58,515 nt of DNA from a candidate division KSB1 bacterium. Lineage in GTDB: Bacteria; Zhuqueibacterota; JdFR-76; DREG01. The notes beneath the pieces were generated by a model that made no database searches, had not been told where the DNA came from, and saw nothing but the letters and a program-made list of their open reading frames with translations. This document shows, piece by piece, positions 7,248 to 44,077 of the stretch. The stretch covers positions 1 through 58,515 of the forward strand of contig JADFJB010000011.1 in NCBI GenBank assembly GCA_022566355.1, given 5' to 3'. The position numbers and the translations under genes are program-made. Position 1 is the stretch's first letter; each line of letters begins with the position of its first letter.

Positions 7248-8804
7248 ATGAAAAAGATTATTATTTTTATAGTTACGTTTATTTGCATTCATAGTCATTC
7301 TAACTTATATGCTCAGGGGAACGGATTTGGGTTGAGCTACAAGATCATAGTCAAGCATAATATTGTTCCATCAAATTCTTTTCGAGATATTGTGGTTTCA
7401 GACTTTACTGTTTATGCTGACCAATGGCTCAGTCATGTATCAGATGGTTTTTCAATAGAAGGACAGGTTGTTTTCAGAATTCCATTTTTTTTGAAACCTT
7501 ATTTTGGATTTAATTATGATTCTTATAATGAAAAGAACGAGAATCCAGAGTTGTGGAAACATATATACTTGTTAGACTTTGATTTCCCATTCGAACAAAT
7601 GCAATCTGCAACAAATTACAAAACACAGACATTCAAATTCGGTATGATGCATGAGCTTGACTATTTAAACCTTCCCATAGTCCCCTTCGTTTTTGGCGAA
7701 TTAGGGCACCAAAAATTCAGGGCGGGTACTTACCTAAAAGGTATTTTGTCTAATCCTGAGTTAGGTGAAATAGTAAACTTTTGGGGACGTTCAAGACTTG
7801 AAACAAAAGCTTCAATCGAGAAAAGCATCGGTGTTGGATTCAATATTCCTGTTGGACAATTCGTTTTAACACCAATGTTTAAACATATTTCAGCTAAAAT
7901 GAAGGTTGCAAATCGAAATTTACAGAACACTTATGCGCAACCTCCTTATGGATCGGTTGCTACTGTTAAAGGAGATCTTACTATCCCCGAAGGACATAAG
8001 ATCAACCTTAGTCATAGTGAGATCGGAATTGGCTTGCAATATAACTTCGATAAGCGCGAGACTGAATCGCCTGTATCAAATAATAAAAGAAAAGATACAT
8101 TTGGAGTCAGGTTAGAACTCAGTTTTGGACACAGTTTCACAGCTTTTGGCGAGTTTGATGAGAATAGAGCTTTTGGAGATAAATGGCTACAAAATGTCAC
8201 AGGCGGTTTGGGGATTGAAGGTCGCATATTGCTCAATACTCGATTTAGATTGTACCCATATATCGGATATCATTTAAGTCAATTTCACGATAATATTGAA
8301 ACACCTTTTCTTTTCGTGAAACAAGTCTACTTATATTTCCCATACCCAACTTCTGATTTTACAAATGTTACTACGAATTACAAAACATCTGGTTTTTCTT
8401 TTGGTTTCATGTATGACCTAATGCGAACTGCAAGAGGTTTCAAACCCTTTTTGATTGTTGAATTGAAAAGGCAATCATTTTTAGCACAGACGAATTTCAG
8501 AGCAAGATTTATATTTCAAAATGAAGATGTTGTAGCTTCAGGATCATCTACAATGCGATCGAAATCAGGATATGGAATAGGTTTTGGTGGCGGGTTCAGT
8601 ATTCCTGTTGGTAGAATTGAATTTGCACCTTCCTTTAAATATAATTCAGTAAATGCTACATTATCAAAACAGAGTTCTAGTTATTCTTTGCAACCTCCAT
8701 TAAACTCAAGTGTGAAGCAAGATGCTCTTGGCACCGATAATAACATAATTCAAATGAGATATTTTGAGTTTAAAATAGGTTTACGGTACAATCTAATACA
8801 ATAG
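7248..8804 (+). CDS. Exported protein with two tandem beta-barrel-like halves (outer membrane type)
   Basis: The 518-residue product has a clear signal peptide (MKKIIIFIVTFICIHSHSNLYAQ, cleavage after AQ at about residue 22). The rest is rich in alternating hydrophobic/aromatic beta strands, as in outer-membrane barrels. It is internally duplicated: about residues 25-270 and 280-518 repeat the same order of landmarks. These are GFSIEG and GLGIEG; KPYFGF and YPYIGY; NYKTQTFKFGMM and NYKTSGFSFGFM; GVGFNIPVGQF and GFGGGFSIPVGRI; QPPYGS and QPPLNS; and a closing GLQYNF and GLRYNL. Each half is the size of a small 8-10-stranded barrel. No enzymatic motif is seen. The ATG at 7248 follows a 467 bp gap and the gene stands alone. 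Function unknown; the outer-membrane location is inferred. Confidence 0.75.
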   Translation: MKKIIIFIVTFICIHSHSNLYAQGNGFGLSYKIIVKHNIVPSNSFRDIVVSDFTVYADQWLSHVSDGFSIEGQVVFRIPFFLKPYFGFNYDSYNEKNENPELWKHIYLLDFDFPFEQMQSATNYKTQTFKFGMMHELDYLNLPIVPFVFGELGHQKFRAGTYLKGILSNPELGEIVNFWGRSRLETKASIEKSIGVGFNIPVGQFVLTPMFKHISAKMKVANRNLQNTYAQPPYGSVATVKGDLTIPEGHKINLSHSEIGIGLQYNFDKRETESPVSNNKRKDTFGVRLELSFGHSFTAFGEFDENRAFGDKWLQNVTGGLGIEGRILLNTRFRLYPYIGYHLSQFHDNIETPFLFVKQVYLYFPYPTSDFTNVTTNYKTSGFSFGFMYDLMRTARGFKPFLIVELKRQSFLAQTNFRARFIFQNEDVVASGSSTMRSKSGYGIGFGGGFSIPVGRIEFAPSFKYNSVNATLSKQSSSYSLQPPLNSSVKQDALGTDNNIIQMRYFEFKIGLRYNLIQ

Positions 8805-20133: not shown

Positions 20134-22584
20134 ATGAAAAAAAATCCGTTTGCGGATATTGAAAAAAAATGGCAGGATTATTGGAAAAATTCTAAACAAT
20201 ATGAGGTTGATCTAGTAAACGCTGACAATAAACTTTATGTCCTTGTGATGTTTATCTATCCATCAGGTGATAAGCTGCATATTGGTCATTGGTATAATTA
20301 TGGGCCAACTGATACATGGGCGAGGTTCAAGAAAATGCAAGGCTTCACTGTGATGGAACCCATAGGATATGATGCTTTCGGTTTGCCTGCTGAAAATTAT
20401 GCAATAAAGCAAGGCGTGCACCCTGCTATTAGTACAGCTAAGAATATCAATAAGATACGAGAGCAATTAAAAGCAATTGGTGCGATGTATGATTGGAGTA
20501 AGGAAATTAATACGAGCTCTCCCCAGTACTATAAATGGACGCAATGGCTTTTTTTACAGCTATACAAGAATGGATTGGCTTATCGCAAAAAAGCTCCTGT
20601 AAATTGGTGCCCGGATTGCGACACAGTTTTAGCCAATGAACAAGTAATTAATGGGAATTGCGAGCGCTGTGATCATGAAGTCACAAAAAAAGATCTTGTA
20701 CAATGGTTTTTTAAAATTACCGCTTATGCAGATAGATTGTTGGAAGACTTCAATAAAATACAATGGCCGGCAAAGACAGTAACAATGCAAAGGAATTGGA
20801 TCGGACGCAGCGAAGGAACTTTAATAAAATTTGATATTCCGCAGCATAGTGAAACCTTGGAAGTGTTTACAACTCGTGCAGATACACTTTTTGGCGCAAC
20901 TTACATGGTATTAGCACCTGAGCATCCTCTGGTAGATAAAATCACTTCCGAGGAGAATAGGGTAGGGGTGATAAATTATAAAAAGCATGCAAAAAAAGTT
21001 ACTGAAATTGAAAGAACATCCACAGAAAGAGAAAAAACCGGTGTGTTTACAGGTGCATATGCAGTAAACCCGATAAATCAAGAAAAAGTCCCAATATGGA
21101 TAGCAGACTACGTTTTGATTGGATATGGCGCCGGCGCTGTTATGGCAGTTCCGGCGCATGATGAAAGAGATTTTGAATTTGCACAAAAGTTTAATCTAGA
21201 AATTCGCCAGGTTATTTCTGTAATTGGTAAAACTCACAAAAAACTCGAACAAGCACTTACTGAATATGGCATGATGATTAACTCGGATCAATTCAACGGT
21301 CAAGATTCTAAAACTGGAATGAATAATGTAACCAATTGGTTAAAAGAAAAAAATGCCGGTAAATCTCATATTATACTCAAACTAAGGGATTGGTTGATTT
21401 CACGGCAAAGGTATTGGGGCGCACCTATCCCCATAGTGTTTTGTGAAAATTGTGGAGAAGTACCGGTCAACGAAGAAGACCTTCCAGTTAAACTACCGGA
21501 ATTTGTCGACTTTACTGGAAAGGGGAAATCACCCTTAGCCTCTAATGAAGAATTCATAAATACTGCCTGTCCAAAATGTGCCGGCCCAGCTACCAGGGAA
21601 GTTGATACGATGGATACTTTTGTTGATTCTTCCTGGTATTTTTTGCGTTATATCAACCCTAAATTAGATTCTGAACCATGGCAAATAGAATTGGCAAATA
21701 AATGGCTTCCTGTTGACCAATATGTTGGGGGGGCAGAGCATGCTGTATTGCATTTATTGTATGCACGATTCATTACTAAAGTATTATATGATTTAAAATA
21801 CATAAATTTTGATGAGCCATTCAAGCGGTTGATACATCAAGGTATTATAACCAACAGGGGTGCGAAAATGTCAAAATCGAAACACAATGTTGTAAATCCG
21901 GATAATTTTATCAATAAATTTGGTTCTGATACATTTAGAATGTTTATGATGTTTATGGGATCATACGAAGATGGGGGAGACTGGAACGATGAAGGAATTT
22001 CCGGCGTTTTTCGATTTTTAAATCGAATTGATCGCTTAATCGATGACTTCTCTGAAAATCCTCCTAATGGTGATGAGACCTTGGTTTTTGAAGAAGTGGA
22101 AAAAAAGCGTCATTACACAATCAAAACAGTGACCCAAGACCTTGACCGATTTCAATTTAATACAGCGATAAGCCGATTAATGGAATTCTTTAATTCTATC
22201 AATAAATACAGAAATAGCGTGGATCATTCGAATCAGAATAAATCAGGATTGGCAACTGCCATTGAAACCTTAATCACTTTATTGGCGCCTTTTGCGCCAC
22301 ATTTATCTGAAGAGCTTTGGAGTAAAACTGGACGAAATCCAAGTATATTTAATCAAACATGGCCAGAATACGATGAAAATAAACTAAAAGTTAAAACTGT
22401 AAATATGGTTGTGCAAGTCAATGGAAAACTTCGGGGACAATTAACTGTTGAAACAGGTCTTGAGGAATCAAAAATTATTGAGGAAGCTCTACAGGTAGAA
22501 AAAGTTAAGAAATATACTACTGATAAGAGGATTATCAAGAGTATTGTTATTCCCCAAAAGTTGGTTAATTTTGTTACTAATTAA
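20134..22584 (+). CDS. leuS: Leucyl-tRNA synthetase
   Basis: An 816-residue class-I synthetase that charges tRNA-Leu. The HIGH motif is at 49-52, followed by the PIGYDAFGLPAENYA block, a zinc-type knuckle CPDC...CERC near 165-185, the CP1 editing domain with TRADTLFGATYMVLAPEHP, the tail of that domain GYGAGAVMAVPAHDERD, then KMSKS at 578-582 and the anticodon domain ending with VNGKLRG. Length is a little shorter than E. coli LeuRS (860). A purine-rich AAGGAGCTG site lies about 16 bases upstream of the ATG at 20134. The gene stands alone after the terminator. Confidence 0.98.
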   Translation: MKKNPFADIEKKWQDYWKNSKQYEVDLVNADNKLYVLVMFIYPSGDKLHIGHWYNYGPTDTWARFKKMQGFTVMEPIGYDAFGLPAENYAIKQGVHPAISTAKNINKIREQLKAIGAMYDWSKEINTSSPQYYKWTQWLFLQLYKNGLAYRKKAPVNWCPDCDTVLANEQVINGNCERCDHEVTKKDLVQWFFKITAYADRLLEDFNKIQWPAKTVTMQRNWIGRSEGTLIKFDIPQHSETLEVFTTRADTLFGATYMVLAPEHPLVDKITSEENRVGVINYKKHAKKVTEIERTSTEREKTGVFTGAYAVNPINQEKVPIWIADYVLIGYGAGAVMAVPAHDERDFEFAQKFNLEIRQVISVIGKTHKKLEQALTEYGMMINSDQFNGQDSKTGMNNVTNWLKEKNAGKSHIILKLRDWLISRQRYWGAPIPIVFCENCGEVPVNEEDLPVKLPEFVDFTGKGKSPLASNEEFINTACPKCAGPATREVDTMDTFVDSSWYFLRYINPKLDSEPWQIELANKWLPVDQYVGGAEHAVLHLLYARFITKVLYDLKYINFDEPFKRLIHQGIITNRGAKMSKSKHNVVNPDNFINKFGSDTFRMFMMFMGSYEDGGDWNDEGISGVFRFLNRIDRLIDDFSENPPNGDETLVFEEVEKKRHYTIKTVTQDLDRFQFNTAISRLMEFFNSINKYRNSVDHSNQNKSGLATAIETLITLLAPFAPHLSEELWSKTGRNPSIFNQTWPEYDENKLKVKTVNMVVQVNGKLRGQLTVETGLEESKIIEEALQVEKVKKYTTDKRIIKSIVIPQKLVNFVTN

Positions 22585-22720: not shown

Positions 22721-23884
22721 TTATTTTTTAATTTTACCTAATACAATATTTTTTAATGGTGTGTCAAGCGGATGATCGATGATATTTTGAAACTCCATTT
22801 TCGAATGCTCTTTATCTTTGATTTTGTCGTAGGCAATTGCAAGCTCATACCTTGCAGCAACATTATTTCGATCTTTTTTGATAGATTTTTTTAATGCTTC
22901 AATCGCCTCATTATACCTTTCTTGGCGATTATAATTTTTTCCCTGCAAATAATACACAACAGTATCATCCTTACCCAGTTCCATTGCTTTATTTAAAATA
23001 GCCAGCACATCAGATGGATTTCCAAGTTTGTCAAGTAATATGGCTAATTCTTTGTAATACAGTGCATTTCTAGGTTTATTAATAATGGCCTTTTTAAATG
23101 AAAGAAAAGATTCATTAAGCATCCCACATCTAAGTTGACTCTCAGCAAGCATAAAATATACTAGGTCATCTTTTTTACGAAATTGTAAATAGTTTTGGAA
23201 TCGGTCGATCGCAGAATGATAATATTTTCCTAAATAAAATTTATAACCCTCTGCATATAGTTGTTCAAGATCTTGTTCACTTTTTTGTTCACCAGCCTCT
23301 AAAACAATCGCTTTTTTTGCATAACTTCCCATTGGTCCATTGGCATCGAACTCAATTACCTTCTTAAAGTTTTTATTTGCTTCATCAATCTGACCTAATA
23401 TGGCATAAATTTTACCGAGTCCGAGATATGCTCTTACCTCAGTTGGAAATAAATCAACCACCTTTTGGAACATCTCAATCGCATTATCGAATTTCTTTTG
23501 AACACTATAAATGGCGCCAAGGTTAAGAATTGACAATTTATGTTTAGGATTTATCTCTATGCTTTTCTGTATATATTCCTCAGCAAGATCAAATTTTCTT
23601 AGTTTAATATATGCCGTACCAACTATTAGCATAGCCTTAAAATGGCCAGGGGATAGATCAAGAAGCTGCTTTAAAAAGCTTATTGATTCTTCATATTTTT
23701 TTATTTCAAAATAAATAAGTCCAAGACTATACAGGACCTCATTTTCTTGCGGATTTACTTCAAGAGCCTTTTCCCAAAGAGCAATTGCATCGTCAAAGCG
23801 CTTATCTTTGTAACAAGAAATAGCTTTTTGGTGAATCGTTTTAACTGTTTGTTTCATTTCTAATAGTATGCTCAATTTTGACAA
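22721..23884 (-). CDS. Tetratricopeptide-repeat protein
   Basis: A 387-residue protein made almost entirely of TPR units. Repeats such as AIALWEKALEVNPQENEVLYSLGLIYFEIKKYEESI and AIEMFQKVVDLFPTEVRAYLGLGKIYAILGQIDEA recur about nine times at 34-residue spacing; at least the first block of six and a second block after about residue 200 are clear. No signal peptide or catalytic domain. Such proteins are scaffolds for protein complexes. The start at 23884 overlaps the proS end by 13 bases; a second Met ten codons in (23857) would remove the overlap. It is probably co-transcribed with proS; partner unknown. Confidence 0.85.
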   Translation of the reverse strand: MSKLSILLEMKQTVKTIHQKAISCYKDKRFDDAIALWEKALEVNPQENEVLYSLGLIYFEIKKYEESISFLKQLLDLSPGHFKAMLIVGTAYIKLRKFDLAEEYIQKSIEINPKHKLSILNLGAIYSVQKKFDNAIEMFQKVVDLFPTEVRAYLGLGKIYAILGQIDEANKNFKKVIEFDANGPMGSYAKKAIVLEAGEQKSEQDLEQLYAEGYKFYLGKYYHSAIDRFQNYLQFRKKDDLVYFMLAESQLRCGMLNESFLSFKKAIINKPRNALYYKELAILLDKLGNPSDVLAILNKAMELGKDDTVVYYLQGKNYNRQERYNEAIEALKKSIKKDRNNVAARYELAIAYDKIKDKEHSKMEFQNIIDHPLDTPLKNIVLGKIKK

Positions 23885-25575
23885 CTTAAAGCTTTTTTGA
23901 TTTCTGGGATAATACTACCAAAAGGAAAAATCTCTTTTTTATTGTTTTTCCTAAATTTAAACTCAACCATGTTATTCTGCAAATTTTTTTCTCCAATGAT
24001 TATATGGATAGGTATTCCTAACAAATCCGCATCCCTAAATTTGAATCCGGGACTAAAATCTCTATCATCAAGCAAACAATCAATATTTATCTCAAGTAGA
24101 TCTTCATATAACGTATTGGAGGCCTCCCCTATTTTTTCATTTTTGTAGTTTATGGGAATTATATGAACTTGATATGGGGAAATTTCAGAATCCCAACAAA
24201 TTCCATTTTCGTCAAGATTTTGTTCTATAAATGCCGCAACGATTCTTTCTATTCCAATCCCATAGCTTCCCATTATAATTGGATTTTCTTTTCCATTTCT
24301 GTCCAAAAAAGTGGCGTTCATGCTCTCTGAATATTTTGTACCTAATTTGAATATATGACCCAACTCTATAGCCCTTACAATTCGCAGCACTTTTCCACAA
24401 TTCGCACAAATGTCTCCATCATTAACCAGAGCCACATCTACAATTTGCTTAATCTTAATATCAACTTGAGGATCAATCCCGGCAATGTGATATTGATCTT
24501 TGTTGGCACCGGAAACAAATCCTTTCTGCTCCAATAATGATTTATCGACGTAAATTTCAATATCCTTTATTCCGATAGGACCTATAAAACCTGCATTTGC
24601 TCCACAAATATTCAAGATTTCATCATTTTCTGCAGGTCTGTATTTATTACCAAACGTCGATAACATTTTGCTTTCATTAAGATCATAATCGCCACGAATC
24701 AATATCATTACGGGCTTAGAATCAATAAGATAAACCAAAGATTTAATAAATGACTGTTTAGGTAAAGTTAAAAATTCTGATACTTCATCAATGGTTTTCT
24801 GAGTAGGAGTATAAATTTCTTCCAATTTTGTGTAATTACCGTTTGTGAAAGGTGTAATTTTAAATTCTGCAATCTCAGCATTAGATGCATAACCACAGTT
24901 GTCACAAAGCGCAACAGTATCCTCCCCCGCTTCTGATTCCACCATAAACTCCTGGGAACCGGAACCACCCATTAATCCACTCGAAGCACTAACAATGAAA
25001 AAATCTAGTCCACATCTCGCAAAAATGCTTTTGTATGCCTGGGAATGTTTATTGTAGCTAATATCCAACCCATCTTTATCAGCATCTAAAGAATATGAAT
25101 CTTTCATTAGAAATTGCCTGGTGCGTAGAACACCTGACCTCGGTCGTGGCTCATCTCTAAATTTATTTTGAATTTGATACCAAATTTGCGGCAGGTTTTT
25201 ATAAGAACGTATTTCGCCTCTTGCAATCGAACAAATGACTTCTTCATGTGTTGGCGCAAGGCACATGTCTCTTGATTTTCTATCTTTAAATTTGAACATT
25301 TCTGCACCAAAATCATCCGCTCTACCTGTCTCATTCCAGGTTTCTATTGGATTTATTGCAGGCAGATGAAATTCCTGACCACCAATAGCATCCATTTCTT
25401 CTCTTATGATAATTTGGATTTTTTTTAGTATTCTCCACCCAAATGGCAAGTGAGAATAGATACCGGCAGCAAGTAAGCGAATCATACCGGACCGAAGCAT
25501 AAACTGATGACTTTTAACAACCGCATCTGAAGGGTTTTCTTTTAATGTGGGAATAAAAGCTTTAGATAATTTCAT
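23872..25575 (-). CDS. proS: Prolyl-tRNA synthetase (bacterial type with editing insertion)
   Basis: A 567-residue class-II synthetase charging tRNA-Pro. The N-terminal core shows SHQFMLRSGMIRLLAAGIY and PTHEE. Motif 2 runs around FRDEPRPRSGVLRTRQFLMKD, and motif 3 is GSYGIGIERIVAAF. Between motifs 2 and 3 lies the YbaK-like INS editing domain (about residues 230-400), as in E. coli ProS. The anticodon-binding domain follows at the C-terminus. It lies about 4 kb from tRNA-Pro. The ATG at 25575 follows a GGGAGG-like site in the antisense reading (AATTACCTCCCAATG). Confidence 0.97.
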   Translation of the reverse strand: MKLSKAFIPTLKENPSDAVVKSHQFMLRSGMIRLLAAGIYSHLPFGWRILKKIQIIIREEMDAIGGQEFHLPAINPIETWNETGRADDFGAEMFKFKDRKSRDMCLAPTHEEVICSIARGEIRSYKNLPQIWYQIQNKFRDEPRPRSGVLRTRQFLMKDSYSLDADKDGLDISYNKHSQAYKSIFARCGLDFFIVSASSGLMGGSGSQEFMVESEAGEDTVALCDNCGYASNAEIAEFKITPFTNGNYTKLEEIYTPTQKTIDEVSEFLTLPKQSFIKSLVYLIDSKPVMILIRGDYDLNESKMLSTFGNKYRPAENDEILNICGANAGFIGPIGIKDIEIYVDKSLLEQKGFVSGANKDQYHIAGIDPQVDIKIKQIVDVALVNDGDICANCGKVLRIVRAIELGHIFKLGTKYSESMNATFLDRNGKENPIIMGSYGIGIERIVAAFIEQNLDENGICWDSEISPYQVHIIPINYKNEKIGEASNTLYEDLLEINIDCLLDDRDFSPGFKFRDADLLGIPIHIIIGEKNLQNNMVEFKFRKNNKKEIFPFGSIIPEIKKALSCQN

Positions 25576-25774
25576 TGGGAGGTAATTATAACTTTTCTAA
25601 TTATAAAGAAATAGAGTTCTTTTCGGTTTGTCGGTATTGAATAAATCCTTGATAATAAGATTTATTTCTATTTAAGTCAAATTTTAAAGTAAACTCCCCT
25701 ACTCTAACTTCGAGAGTATGGATATTCACAATGTTGCGATACTGAAATGAATAAATTGATAATTATATATTAAT

Positions 25775-26158
25775 TTATCCCGCAACCGACTCTAATGATT
25801 TTTCTAAATCTTGATTTTGATGTTTAAAGAAGCCACGCGATCTGTTCTTAACAGTTCGAACATGTTCTTCAAGAATGGATATGATTTCGCCATTTCTCTC
25901 GATTGCATTAACCGCTTCTTTGAGTTTGGATATTCTTCTGTTTATTTTTTTTTCATAATTTTCGAATGAATACTCATCTTGCTTTACGATCCCAAGCGTC
26001 AAAGAAAAGAGATCATTGAATACCTTCTCGGGATTGGTTGCAATCGTCAACCACTCTCTACAAAAACTTGAGATTGATTGGCCTTCGAGTTCCGCCATTA
26101 TTTTAATGCTATTATAAGTCTCACCATCAATACGAATATTTAATACTTTTTCTTTCAT
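25775..26158 (-). CDS. Ribbon-helix-helix-type small protein
   Basis: A 127-residue protein. The N-terminus (KEKVLNIRIDGETYNSIKIMAELEGQSISSFCREWL) fits a ribbon-helix-helix DNA-binding fold, a beta strand followed by two helices. The rest is charged and helical with no further motif. RHH proteins are often antitoxins or small repressors, but I see no adjacent toxin gene. Start ATG at 26158 with AGGAAG just upstream. Function as a regulator is inferred from the fold pattern only. Confidence 0.6.
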   Translation of the reverse strand: MKEKVLNIRIDGETYNSIKIMAELEGQSISSFCREWLTIATNPEKVFNDLFSLTLGIVKQDEYSFENYEKKINRRISKLKEAVNAIERNGEIISILEEHVRTVKNRSRGFFKHQNQDLEKSLESVAG

Positions 26159-26507
26159 ACTTCCTCCATGAAATATTTGTCAAGAAATCGCTCGAAATTT
26201 AGTTTTCTGCTAAAATTATTTAGAGACGGGTTTTATTAGTGTAGATTATTTAATATAACTAAAATTTAAAGAAATTGAATACTAAAAATCAAGCAATTTC
26301 TAAAAAACTTTCAAATAATGGTTGTTGATGCTTACTCGGCATATGAAGAAGTTTTTGTGAAAAAATAACGAATCAAATCTTTCCCCTAGCAAATACAGGC
26401 GACTTAAATCTATTATCTGTGAAAATCTCAAGTATCAGACTATGATCGCAACAATTATGATCAGTATACCAAATGATTCCGGCAAATAAATCACTTCTAG
26501 TAGTACG
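26159..26507. other. Noncoding spacer upstream of the tRNA-Arg region
   Basis: About 350 AT-rich bases with no ORF of convincing quality, no terminator that I can place, and no repeat matching the palindromes elsewhere in the window. Confidence 0.4.
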
Positions 26508-26580
26508 CCAGGCGGGACTCGAACCCACAACCTATAGCTCCGGAGGCTATTGCTCTATCAATGAGTCCCATCTTACTACG
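26507..26580 (-). pseudogene. Degenerate tRNA-Arg(CCG) copy
   Basis: Reads on the minus strand. The 3' half is almost identical to the intact tRNA-Arg next door: T-arm TGTGGGTTCGAGTCCC and the 3' acceptor strand CTGGCGT. The anticodon stem (ATAGC/GCTAT, loop CTCCGGA, anticodon CCG) still pairs although its bases differ from the intact copy (ACGGC/GCCGT). The D-loop is shortened, and the 5' acceptor strand (around TAAGATG) no longer pairs with the 3' strand. So it is a duplicated tRNA gene that lost its 5' end, not a working tRNA. Confidence 0.8.
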
Positions 26581-26602
26581 TAAACCACTTCCTATATTTC
26601 GT

Positions 26603-26676
26603 ACGCCAGGCGGGACTCGAACCCACAACCTACGGCTTCGGAGGCCGTCACTCTATCCAAGTTGAGCTACTGGCGC
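26603..26676 (-). tRNA. tRNA-Arg(CCG)
   Basis: Minus-strand cloverleaf. Acceptor GCGCCAG pairs with CTGGCGT (the last pair is a G-U wobble), D-arm GCTCAACTTGGATAGAG, anticodon stem ACGGC/GCCGT with loop CTCCGAA (anticodon CCG, reads CGG), and T-arm with GTGGGTTCGAGTCCC. The only complete one of three related sequences here. Confidence 0.92.
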
Positions 26677-26753
26677 TTGAATTTATCTTTTAAAAGTATT
26701 ATACTCAAAACAATTCATTGATTCAACCTTAGTAAAAGGGAGATTATAGATTT

Positions 26754-27376
26754 ATGAAAAATTACGAAATATGGTCTCTTGTACTTGGATCTACAGGAGT
26801 TTCTATAGCATTATCAGTATTAATTGTTACAATATGGGGTGAAAAGTTACGCCAATTCTGGTCCAAACCAAATCTCAAACTTTCGTTTTTAGAAGCCAGC
26901 CTTAATAATACACGTGATGGAATAAATGGTTGTATTATATATTACAAGTATCGAATGATAAAAAAATGTCTCCCGCAGATAACGTTGAAATTTTATTGAC
27001 AAACATATACGAAAAAGGTCCGGATGATAATTGGCATGAAAAACTTTTTAGTGGTCAGATACCTTTGGCTTGGCGTTATCCACCCTATTCTGGGGGGAAA
27101 ACAGTTGGACGCGAAGCTGATGCAACATTTGGTCATATAATGGAAAATGAACATAGTTTCACCATGTTACCAGTGGCAGTTGTTCCTAATAATCTTAATC
27201 AAAAAATATTACCGAACAATCCTACTAAGTTAATATTTATAGCTACATCTAATACTGTTAATTCTGAACCACTCATTGTTAAGGTAACCTGGAGTGGGAA
27301 ATGGGTTATGGGGAAAGCAGAAATTGAGAAAGAGTGCACTATAAAAACAAATCAAGAAAACCAAACCAAATTGTAA
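26754..27376 (+). pseudogene. Membrane-anchored protein of unknown function, frameshifted once
   Basis: Two reading frames read as one protein. The first, from ATG 26754 (AAAAGGGAGA upstream), encodes a short N-terminus, one membrane helix (GSTGVSIALSVLIVTIW) and KLRQFWSKPNLKLSFLEA. Near 26930-26940 the frame must slip by one base, after which the protein goes on with YYILQVSNDKKMSPADNVEILLTNIYEKGPDD and ends at 27376. The join makes a sensible extracytoplasmic beta-rich domain in which VSNDKKMSPADNVEILL is the typical 'conserved chain, associated-strand' form. If the frameshift is real the gene is broken. No family recognised. Confidence 0.7.
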
Positions 27377-27530
27377 ATTTACGTTGCAAAATAATACCAA
27401 CGATCAATAGCTTGGTATACTTTACGTTTTCCACCTCCCCTAAAGACTTGTTATTTCTTAAATAAGATTCTAAAAACTTTCCCTCTATACACGTAAATTG
27501 AGCTTAATGAAGAATTAAATGTGTAGGTTC

Positions 27531-27559
27531 GACAATCTATCCAATTGAGCCACTGGCGC
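27531..27559 (-). pseudogene. 5' fragment of a tRNA-Arg-like gene
   Basis: On the minus strand this reads GCGCCAGTGGCTCAATTGGATAGA, the acceptor and D-arm of a tRNA that matches the 5' end of the intact tRNA-Arg (GCGCCAGTAGCTCAACTTGGATAGAG) with small differences. The match ends after the D-arm; the rest of the tRNA is not present. The neighbouring 27377-27642 stretch contains no gene. Confidence 0.75.
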
Positions 27560-42526: not shown

Positions 42527-44077
42527 CTAAATACTTTGAACGGATTTAGTCTCGCGGATAACGGTAACCTTAATATGGCCAGGGTACTCCATCTCAGATT
42601 GTATTTTTTTAGCAATCTCTGAAGACATAACATATGCTTCATCATCGGTCACTCTTTCAGGTTCTACGATTACGCGAATTTCCCGTCCGGCTGAAATGGC
42701 AAATGATTTTGAGACTCCTGGAAAAGAATCTGCTAATTTTTCCAGAGAATCGATTCTCCTAACATAATTTTCAAGTGTTTCTCTACGGGCTCCTGGCCTG
42801 GAACCTGAGATAGAATCTGCAGCCGAAACCAGGATTGAAATTGGATTGTCTTTAATTTCATCCTCATGATGAGATGCAATTGCATTGATTACAACCTTGT
42901 GTTCATTGTATTTTTTTGCCAATTCTACCCCAAGTTGAGTATGGGTGCTCTCTGAATTTTGGCTAATTGCTTTGCCGATGTCATGGAACAATGCGGCTCG
43001 TTTTGCCAATTTTATATCTAATCCTAACTCAGCCGCCATTGCACCGCACAGTAATGCAACTTCTTTACAGTGGTTCAACACATTCTGTCCATAACTAGTA
43101 CGAAATTTAAGCCTTCCCAGGGTTTTTATCATTTCAGGATGTACATCTCTTATTTCCAAATCTTTTAAACACTGGGTTGCGGATTTCCAAATCAACTGCT
43201 CAATTTCTTTCTCGCATTTTCGAATGGCCTCTTCTACTCTTTGCGGATTAATTTTTCCGCCCTTGATTAATTTTTCCAAAGCAATCCGGGCAATTTCTCT
43301 TTTTACCGGATCAAATCCGGATAAAACAACAGCTTCCGGGGTATCATCCACAATAATTTTTACGCCAGTCAAATTCTCGAATGCTTTTATATTGCGGCCG
43401 TCTCTCCCGATTATTCGACCTTTAATTTCATCAGAACTTAGATGAACTACCGATACGGTAGTCTCTGTGGTATGCTCGGAAGCCACTTTTTCCACAGCTC
43501 TTGTGACAATCTCTTTTGCTTCCCGAACAGCGTTTTCTTTGGCTTCGTTAAGAATTCTCTTAGAAAGTTTTGCAGCTTCCAGTTTTGTATCTGTTTCAAT
43601 ATTAGAAAACAATAATTTTTTTGCTTCTTCAACGGAGAGTCCTGAAATTGAGTCTAATCTTTCATTTTCCCGCTTAATAATTTGAGAGAGTTCTTTGTCT
43701 TTATTTTGAATGCTCTCTTTCATTTTAGCAATACCTTCTTCTTTCTTCATCAGGTCATGTTCTTTGATATCCAGGGATTCAGAGCGTTCATTAAAAAAAT
43801 TTTCTTTCCCTTGTATTTTTTGGTCTAACTGCTCAAGGGACGATTCTCGTTCCTGGTATTCTTTCTCAAGGCTTTCTCGAAGTCGAAATTGCTCTTCTCT
43901 TGCCTTTAATAATATATCATTTTTTGTTTGCTCGGCTTCTTCTTTGGCACTGCTTAATATCTCACCAGCCTTCATATTTGCTTTTTGTGAGTTTTGTTTC
44001 TGATAGTACTGATTGATGAACCAACCGGCTACAAACAGCAAAAGTCCACCCGCTATGGTCGCTCCAGTTTCTAACAC
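42527..44077 (-). CDS. rny: Ribonuclease Y
   Basis: A 516-residue membrane-bound endoribonuclease that starts mRNA decay. Features in order: N-terminal membrane helix (GATIAGGLLLFVAGWF), a long charged coiled coil (about 35-170), a KH domain with IKGRIIGRDGRNIKAFENLTGV, and an HD domain with ALFHDIGKAI and HHEDE. The end EMEYPGHIKVTVIRE is typical. Length equals that of B. subtilis Rny (520). ATG at 44077. Followed by the terminator at 42463-42502. def lies 35 bases upstream. Confidence 0.97.
   Translation of the reverse strand: MLETGATIAGGLLLFVAGWFINQYYQKQNSQKANMKAGEILSSAKEEAEQTKNDILLKAREEQFRLRESLEKEYQERESSLEQLDQKIQGKENFFNERSESLDIKEHDLMKKEEGIAKMKESIQNKDKELSQIIKRENERLDSISGLSVEEAKKLLFSNIETDTKLEAAKLSKRILNEAKENAVREAKEIVTRAVEKVASEHTTETTVSVVHLSSDEIKGRIIGRDGRNIKAFENLTGVKIIVDDTPEAVVLSGFDPVKREIARIALEKLIKGGKINPQRVEEAIRKCEKEIEQLIWKSATQCLKDLEIRDVHPEMIKTLGRLKFRTSYGQNVLNHCKEVALLCGAMAAELGLDIKLAKRAALFHDIGKAISQNSESTHTQLGVELAKKYNEHKVVINAIASHHEDEIKDNPISILVSAADSISGSRPGARRETLENYVRRIDSLEKLADSFPGVSKSFAISAGREIRVIVEPERVTDDEAYVMSSEIAKKIQSEMEYPGHIKVTVIRETKSVQSI

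Follow-up and report, generated by a model that had tools for sequence, protein, structure and literature searches.

Why does a stretch of bacterial DNA carry three tRNA-Arg-like sequences around a single small gene, and are they the trace of mobile elements or of local copying? We examined this in a window of 58,515 nucleotides (the whole stretch of DNA analysed) from a candidate division KSB1 bacterium, which is contig C11 of a draft genome in 213 contigs. The features on which the question turns are the following.

26601-26676, minus strand: copy 1, an intact tRNA-Arg(CCG) (ARAGORN; Rfam tRNA model, 64 bits), whose anticodon arm reads ACGGC-CTCCGAA-GCCGT and has A37 (arm comparison)
26503-26567, minus strand: copy 2, a tRNA-Arg(CCG) from the D-arm to the 3' end (direct repeat, Rfam, alignments), with the canonical loop CTCCGGA (G37) and the stem ATAGC/GCTAT (alignments) and without the 5' acceptor strand
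27530-27559, minus strand: the 5' fragment, the first 30 nt of a tRNA-Arg (match to the relatives G005 and G006; blastn)
26754-27376, plus strand: an orphan gene in two overlapping frames, 26754-26999 and 26930-27376 (ORF list)

All three tRNA-Arg-like sequences are real, far outside what chance would produce: ARAGORN, Rfam, the repeat alignment and blastn bear out the preliminary description of this DNA, which had named an intact tRNA-Arg(CCG), a copy with a paired but altered anticodon stem and a lost 5' acceptor strand (our copy 2), and a 5' fragment. Copies 1 and 2 form a direct repeat of 57 nt with 88% identity and a start-to-start spacing of 98. Within the repeat they differ in the anticodon arm, and their last 33 nt are identical in the alignment; the stem of copy 2 pairs fully, and its first ~20 nt have no match to copy 1. 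Only about 22-41 bp lie between the end of copy 1 and the start of similarity in copy 2. At 26512-26567 on the minus strand copy 2 scores 32.8 bits with the Rfam tRNA model, above the gathering score of 29, a pass that cautions against counting it as a tRNA gene. The 5' fragment stops in the anticodon stem, before the loop. It agrees at 28/30 positions with the first 30 nt of tRNA-Arg(CCG) of G005 and G006, which belong to the same order, and at 26/30 with, among others, tRNA-Arg(TCG) of its own genome; the blastn E value against G005 is 6.8e-6, so the match is not due to chance.

On the minus strand the order is thus the 5' fragment, the orphan gene (divergent), the intact copy 1 and copy 2, with 853 bp between copy 1 and the 5' fragment. 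The three sequences had been said to bracket the gene. The 5' fragment and copy 1 do flank it, but copy 2 lies beyond it, just downstream of copy 1.

The surroundings of tRNA-Arg(CCG) were compared across 20 mapped loci of relatives, which identified these neighbours in the window.

23872-25575, minus strand: proS, the ancestral downstream neighbour of tRNA-Arg(CCG)
22721-23884, minus strand: a TPR protein gene, an ancestral neighbour
20134-22584, plus strand: leuS, an ancestral neighbour
42527-44077, minus strand: rny, here 15.9 kb from tRNA-Arg(CCG)

The conserved order, assembled piecewise from relatives, is rny-ymdB-folD-tRNA-Arg(CCG)-proS-TPR-leuS, with a single tRNA-Arg(CCG) between folD and proS. 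Three of the 20 loci (G003, G005 and G006) are on contigs that hold both the tRNA and proS, and there the single tRNA-Arg(CCG) stands 39-49 bp before proS. On the other side, rny lies within about 2.4 kb before tRNA-Arg(CCG) in 10 of the 20 loci, and all four such loci that were read in detail have two ORFs in between, which we take from their sequences to be ymdB and folD. In our genome the proS-TPR-leuS-tRNA-Pro side is undisturbed, and the rest has changed: the gap from copy 2 to proS measures 928 bp, rny lies at a distance of 15.9 kb, and ymdB-folD is on a different contig (C67), where no tRNA-like sequence follows folD (best score 18, equal to the shuffle 95% level of 18). An old and conserved locus, tRNA-Arg(CCG)/proS, has therefore been broken on both sides in our genome, which documents the break-up of a conserved tRNA/proS junction in a little-studied phylum. 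The relatives have one tRNA and no insert; the nearest, members only of the same family or order, are too remote to serve as a clean empty site.

The draft state of the genome raises the question of an assembly error, since there are 213 contigs and some tRNA genes are absent from the genome's list. This we regard as highly improbable, because the window is a single contig of 58.5 kb whose gene order is conserved on its proS side.

The use of tRNA-Arg genes by integrating elements was followed in 39 genomes, in which we inspected 12 tRNA-Arg-like pieces outside the window; the counts are lower bounds for the genomes searched. There are at least three tRNA-Arg 3' pieces in G013, at least six in G033 (one of TCT type) and at least one in G019, beside a TCT gene, and a further tRNA-Arg-like piece in G007 is cut by a contig end. 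The last of the 12, on C104 of the genome itself, is taken up below with copy 2. Contig C34 of G013 carries an intact tRNA-Arg(CCG) at about 14.2 kb; its 3' end recurs identically as a 45-nt piece at 2.7 kb, and the ~11.5 kb between the two hold a Phage_integrase protein (a tyrosine integrase, 7259-8359). On C35 of the same genome, a tRNA-Arg 3' piece has an integrase some 400 bp away. These arrangements identify tRNA-Arg(CCG) as an integration target in this phylum.

An integrase near the copies had been proposed as a check on the locus, and none was found in the window by tblastn with eight integrases (two from G013 and six of the seven own-genome matches, L047 being left out). All seven integrase matches in the genome itself, one of them under the cut-off, are on other contigs. 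On C80 (L044), some 120 bp from a tRNA-Arg(CCT), lies the remnant of a tyrosine integrase, interrupted by an internal TGA. Elsewhere in the genome, a tRNA-Arg(TCT) is represented on C203 only by its 3' 40 nt (L081, 1500-1540), beside an apparent protein-gene end, and blastn with a relative's tRNA-Arg(TCT) found no intact gene of that type in the assembly. A predicted tRNA-Ala(AGC) on C14 (L067, 303-377) is odd and scores low (47.5 bits); it may be a pseudogene or an acquired tRNA.

The best explanation, to which we give about an even chance, is that the locus is the ancestral folD/tRNA-Arg(CCG)/proS junction and that the extra pieces are scars left by elements that inserted in the past and were deleted again. 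The junction would be the kind of spot where the tyrosine-integrase elements of the phylum land. An element with a tRNA-Arg 3' segment of its own would have entered the native gene by recombination close to the D-arm or the anticodon arm; the regenerated gene would be copy 1, with an element-type anticodon arm and A37, the displaced native 3' part would be copy 2, with the canonical arm and G37, and nearly the whole element would have been lost later. The 5' fragment would go back to a separate event, perhaps a rarer type of insertion that displaces a 5' piece, whose remainder would be 27529-26677. Copy 1 would then be the working tRNA, and the fragments would be without function.

That these particular pieces arose by insertion and deletion we infer from several signs. 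There is non-ancestral DNA on both sides of the copies, and the genome keeps the integrase remnant near tRNA-Arg(CCT). The target use in G013 and the non-ancestral flanks make the "old attachment region" of the preliminary description plausible. Against it stand the lack of an integrase in the window, the near-touching copies 1 and 2 and the likeness of their downstream flanks. The 850-bp stretch is also not exceptional in GC (0.326, against a mean of 0.377 with sd 0.036), 25576-26500 holds no convincing further tRNA piece (best score 21, shuffle 95% level 19), and the 5' fragment ends short of the loop.

Known tRNA-borne islands offer a measure of this. In the portions of the Islander report used here (PMC4383910), 3' tRNA fragments are the usual case, given for 3760 islands, with 5' fragments for 159 and anticodon-centred sites for 2083. 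Our locus shares with these tDNA islands an intact tRNA and a displaced fragment in the same orientation, but differs in that its intervals, 22-41 bp to copy 2 and 853 bp to the 5' fragment, fall short of normal island size and hold no integrase gene. As an attachment repeat, the 3' end is identical over 33 nt and the anticodon arm differs. Partial tRNA copies are described as widespread attachment remnants in the sections drawn upon of a second report (PMC9897764), which explains copies like those seen here as attR sites; its cases there span ~9-23 kb of integrated DNA, as opposed to 22-41 bp and 0.85 kb at our locus. Among the papers listed on Calditrichota with tRNA, genomic island and integrase, there was nothing specific.

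In a scan for partial copies of 136 distinct tRNA genes, eight of the 16 rows listed were flagged as partial; three flagged rows (L004 and two of L116) were left out as likely matches to neighbouring, different tRNAs. Among the remainder, on C39 of the same genome (L054, 46-223), an intact tRNA-Asn(GTT) is preceded 104 bp upstream by a decayed copy. This copy is identical to the intact gene for 37 nt, after which the palindrome TCCCGACGGGTCGGGA interrupts the anticodon arm. The genome has 30 sites with palindromes of this type, TCCCGA..TCGGGA, the reversed control has none, and no island was seen at the tRNA-Asn(GTT) locus. The scan also showed three more tRNA-Arg genes (L033, L144 and L155) with a 3' half copy less than 100 bp downstream. 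Two of these, in unrelated records (L144, 5732-5970; L155, 288-520), consist of a tRNA-Arg(CCT), a long hairpin identified by eye and then a 3' half copy that begins in the anticodon loop, which looks like a recurring arrangement.

Such cases bear on an alternative that involves no mobile element: the tRNA gene and its spacer would have been duplicated locally in tandem, copy 2 would then have decayed, and the 5' fragment would be another broken duplicate. We hold this to be possible, with somewhat less confidence than the insertion scars. It is a close rival, given that the window has no integrase, the copies nearly touch, their flanks are similar and the tRNA-Asn(GTT) pair offers a parallel. 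The unit spacing of 98 bp fits it, and the flanks that follow copies 1 and 2 are weakly alike (34 of 5000 random stretches were as good, and 75 of 5000 in a local version of the comparison), a resemblance to be expected of tandem duplication and not of an attachment scar. The broken tRNA-Asn copy shares some upstream flank with its intact neighbour 104 bp away, and the 3' half copies in L033, L144 and L155 start 46-93 bp downstream of tRNA-Arg(TCT) or tRNA-Arg(CCT). The differences between copies 1 and 2, however, lie only in the anticodon arm and are compensated, the last 33 nt being identical and the first ~20 nt unrelated, whereas simple decay would scatter its changes. Duplication also leaves the foreign-looking arm of copy 1 and the changed neighbours on both sides unexplained.

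Both origins offered in the preliminary description thus survive: target use in the phylum and non-ancestral flanks speak for the attachment region and the missing integrase and near-touching copies against it, while weak flank similarity and the decayed tRNA-Asn parallel favour tandem duplication and the confinement of changes to the anticodon arm does not. We regard the locus as real but largely ordinary, a scar locus at a tRNA integration target.

Alternatively, an insertion of ~0.97 kb that bore a complete replacement tRNA-Arg(CCG) could have split a native tRNA-Arg(CCG), whose two halves would be the 5' fragment and copy 2. Order and orientation fit such a split, and in G005 as in G006 the two halves match a single gene, where they overlap by ~12 nt. 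Within that overlap, though, they agree by eye only in GATAGA and then differ; copy 2 fits the genes of other relatives best, and the 5' fragment fits its own genome's tRNA-Arg(TCG) almost equally well (26/30). The absence of an identical overlap and the different best relatives led us to demote this model, which we consider unlikely.

The insertion reading gives a particular interest to the anticodon arm of copy 1, the sole intact tRNA-Arg(CCG) found, whose A37 arm is the only unusual element of the locus. Position 37 was compared among distinct tRNA-Arg genes of loci with a readable arm. G37 occurs in all 22 other non-viral CCG genes examined; the CCG genes with A37 are two, copy 1 and one on a viral contig (L202). 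All 15 CCT or TCT tRNA-Arg genes have A37. Exact patterns found 13 A37-form and 13 G37-form stretches in viral contigs, which shows that A37 is not rare outside the phylum; T25, which accompanies A37 in copy 1, is seen in 4 of these A37-form stretches and in no G37-form stretch. When the central 50 nt of copy 1 were compared with loci under 20 kb, its own locus's copies aside, L202 matched at 47/50, while the best relative within the phylum and one other viral contig both reached 44/50. On one flank of the L202 tRNA lie a MoxR-type ATPase and a DUF5122 protein and on the opposite flank proteins that match nothing in Pfam, a setting that would suit a provirus border, and two further viral contigs carry only the 3' end of a tRNA of this type. 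Similarity searches with copy 1 in plasmids and phages gave ordinary tRNA matches, none above 90% identity, and exact-pattern searches of viral contigs turned up neither the arm of copy 2 nor a related 3' end.

Copy 2 has its own likeness within the genome. A full-length but decayed tRNA-Arg(CCG)-like sequence on C104 (L034, 4056-4131) has the GCTAT arm of copy 2 and shares with it the 17-nt CCTCCGGAGCTATAGGT, for which reason the arm of copy 2 looks native. Together with the canonical G37 arm of copy 2 and the match of copy 1 to L202, this points weakly, on a short sequence, to copy 2 as native and to copy 1 as possibly delivered. The fuller claim, that a mobile element destroyed the native G37 tRNA-Arg(CCG) (copy 2) and that an A37-type copy 1 of another lineage, delivered by the element, took over, is in our view rather doubtful.

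If true, a tRNA that depends on m1G37 would have been replaced naturally by one that does not, like the suppressors of trmD-deficient E. coli. In the parts of that study relied on here (PMC8643618), anticodon mutations of argW and argVYZQ under selection yield an A37 tRNA-Arg(CCG). Copy 1 is likewise an A37 tRNA-Arg with the anticodon CCG in which m1G37 would be unneeded; such a tRNA arose by anticodon mutation under selection in E. coli, whereas here it is natural. The three tRNA-Pro genes of our genome retain G36G37 by eye. Were the replacement demonstrated, mobile DNA would have altered the modification needs of a host tRNA in nature. We also considered copy 1 as a tRNA-Arg(TCT) with a changed anticodon, since its arm differs from the TCT arm of G015 only in the anticodon. 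This candidate was set back by the different stem of the genome's own TCT-type 3' piece on C203 and by the A37 CCG genes on viral contigs, with which a foreign origin fits at least as well.

The remaining features lie around the copies.

25775-26158, minus strand: a small protein with a weak NikA-like match, between copy 2 and proS in DNA that is not ancestral there
27378-27440, strand not assigned: a palindromic stretch

The two frames of the orphan gene encode 81 and 148 aa, and its N-terminus resembles a membrane anchor by eye. A frameshift, as stated in the preliminary description, is plausible from the overlap of the frames, and the gene has no detectable relative. For the 148-aa part none was found in the other 81 genomes of the phylum, among plasmids, or in genome contigs and viral contigs by pattern-based scans, which detect only close relatives, and neither frame has a family in Pfam, PHROGs or NCBIfam except for one match under the cut-off. 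The NikA-like match of the small protein (21.3 bits, cut-off 27) is too weak for naming it a mobilization protein. Of the palindromic stretch, 31 nt recur at 90% on contig C36 of the same genome.
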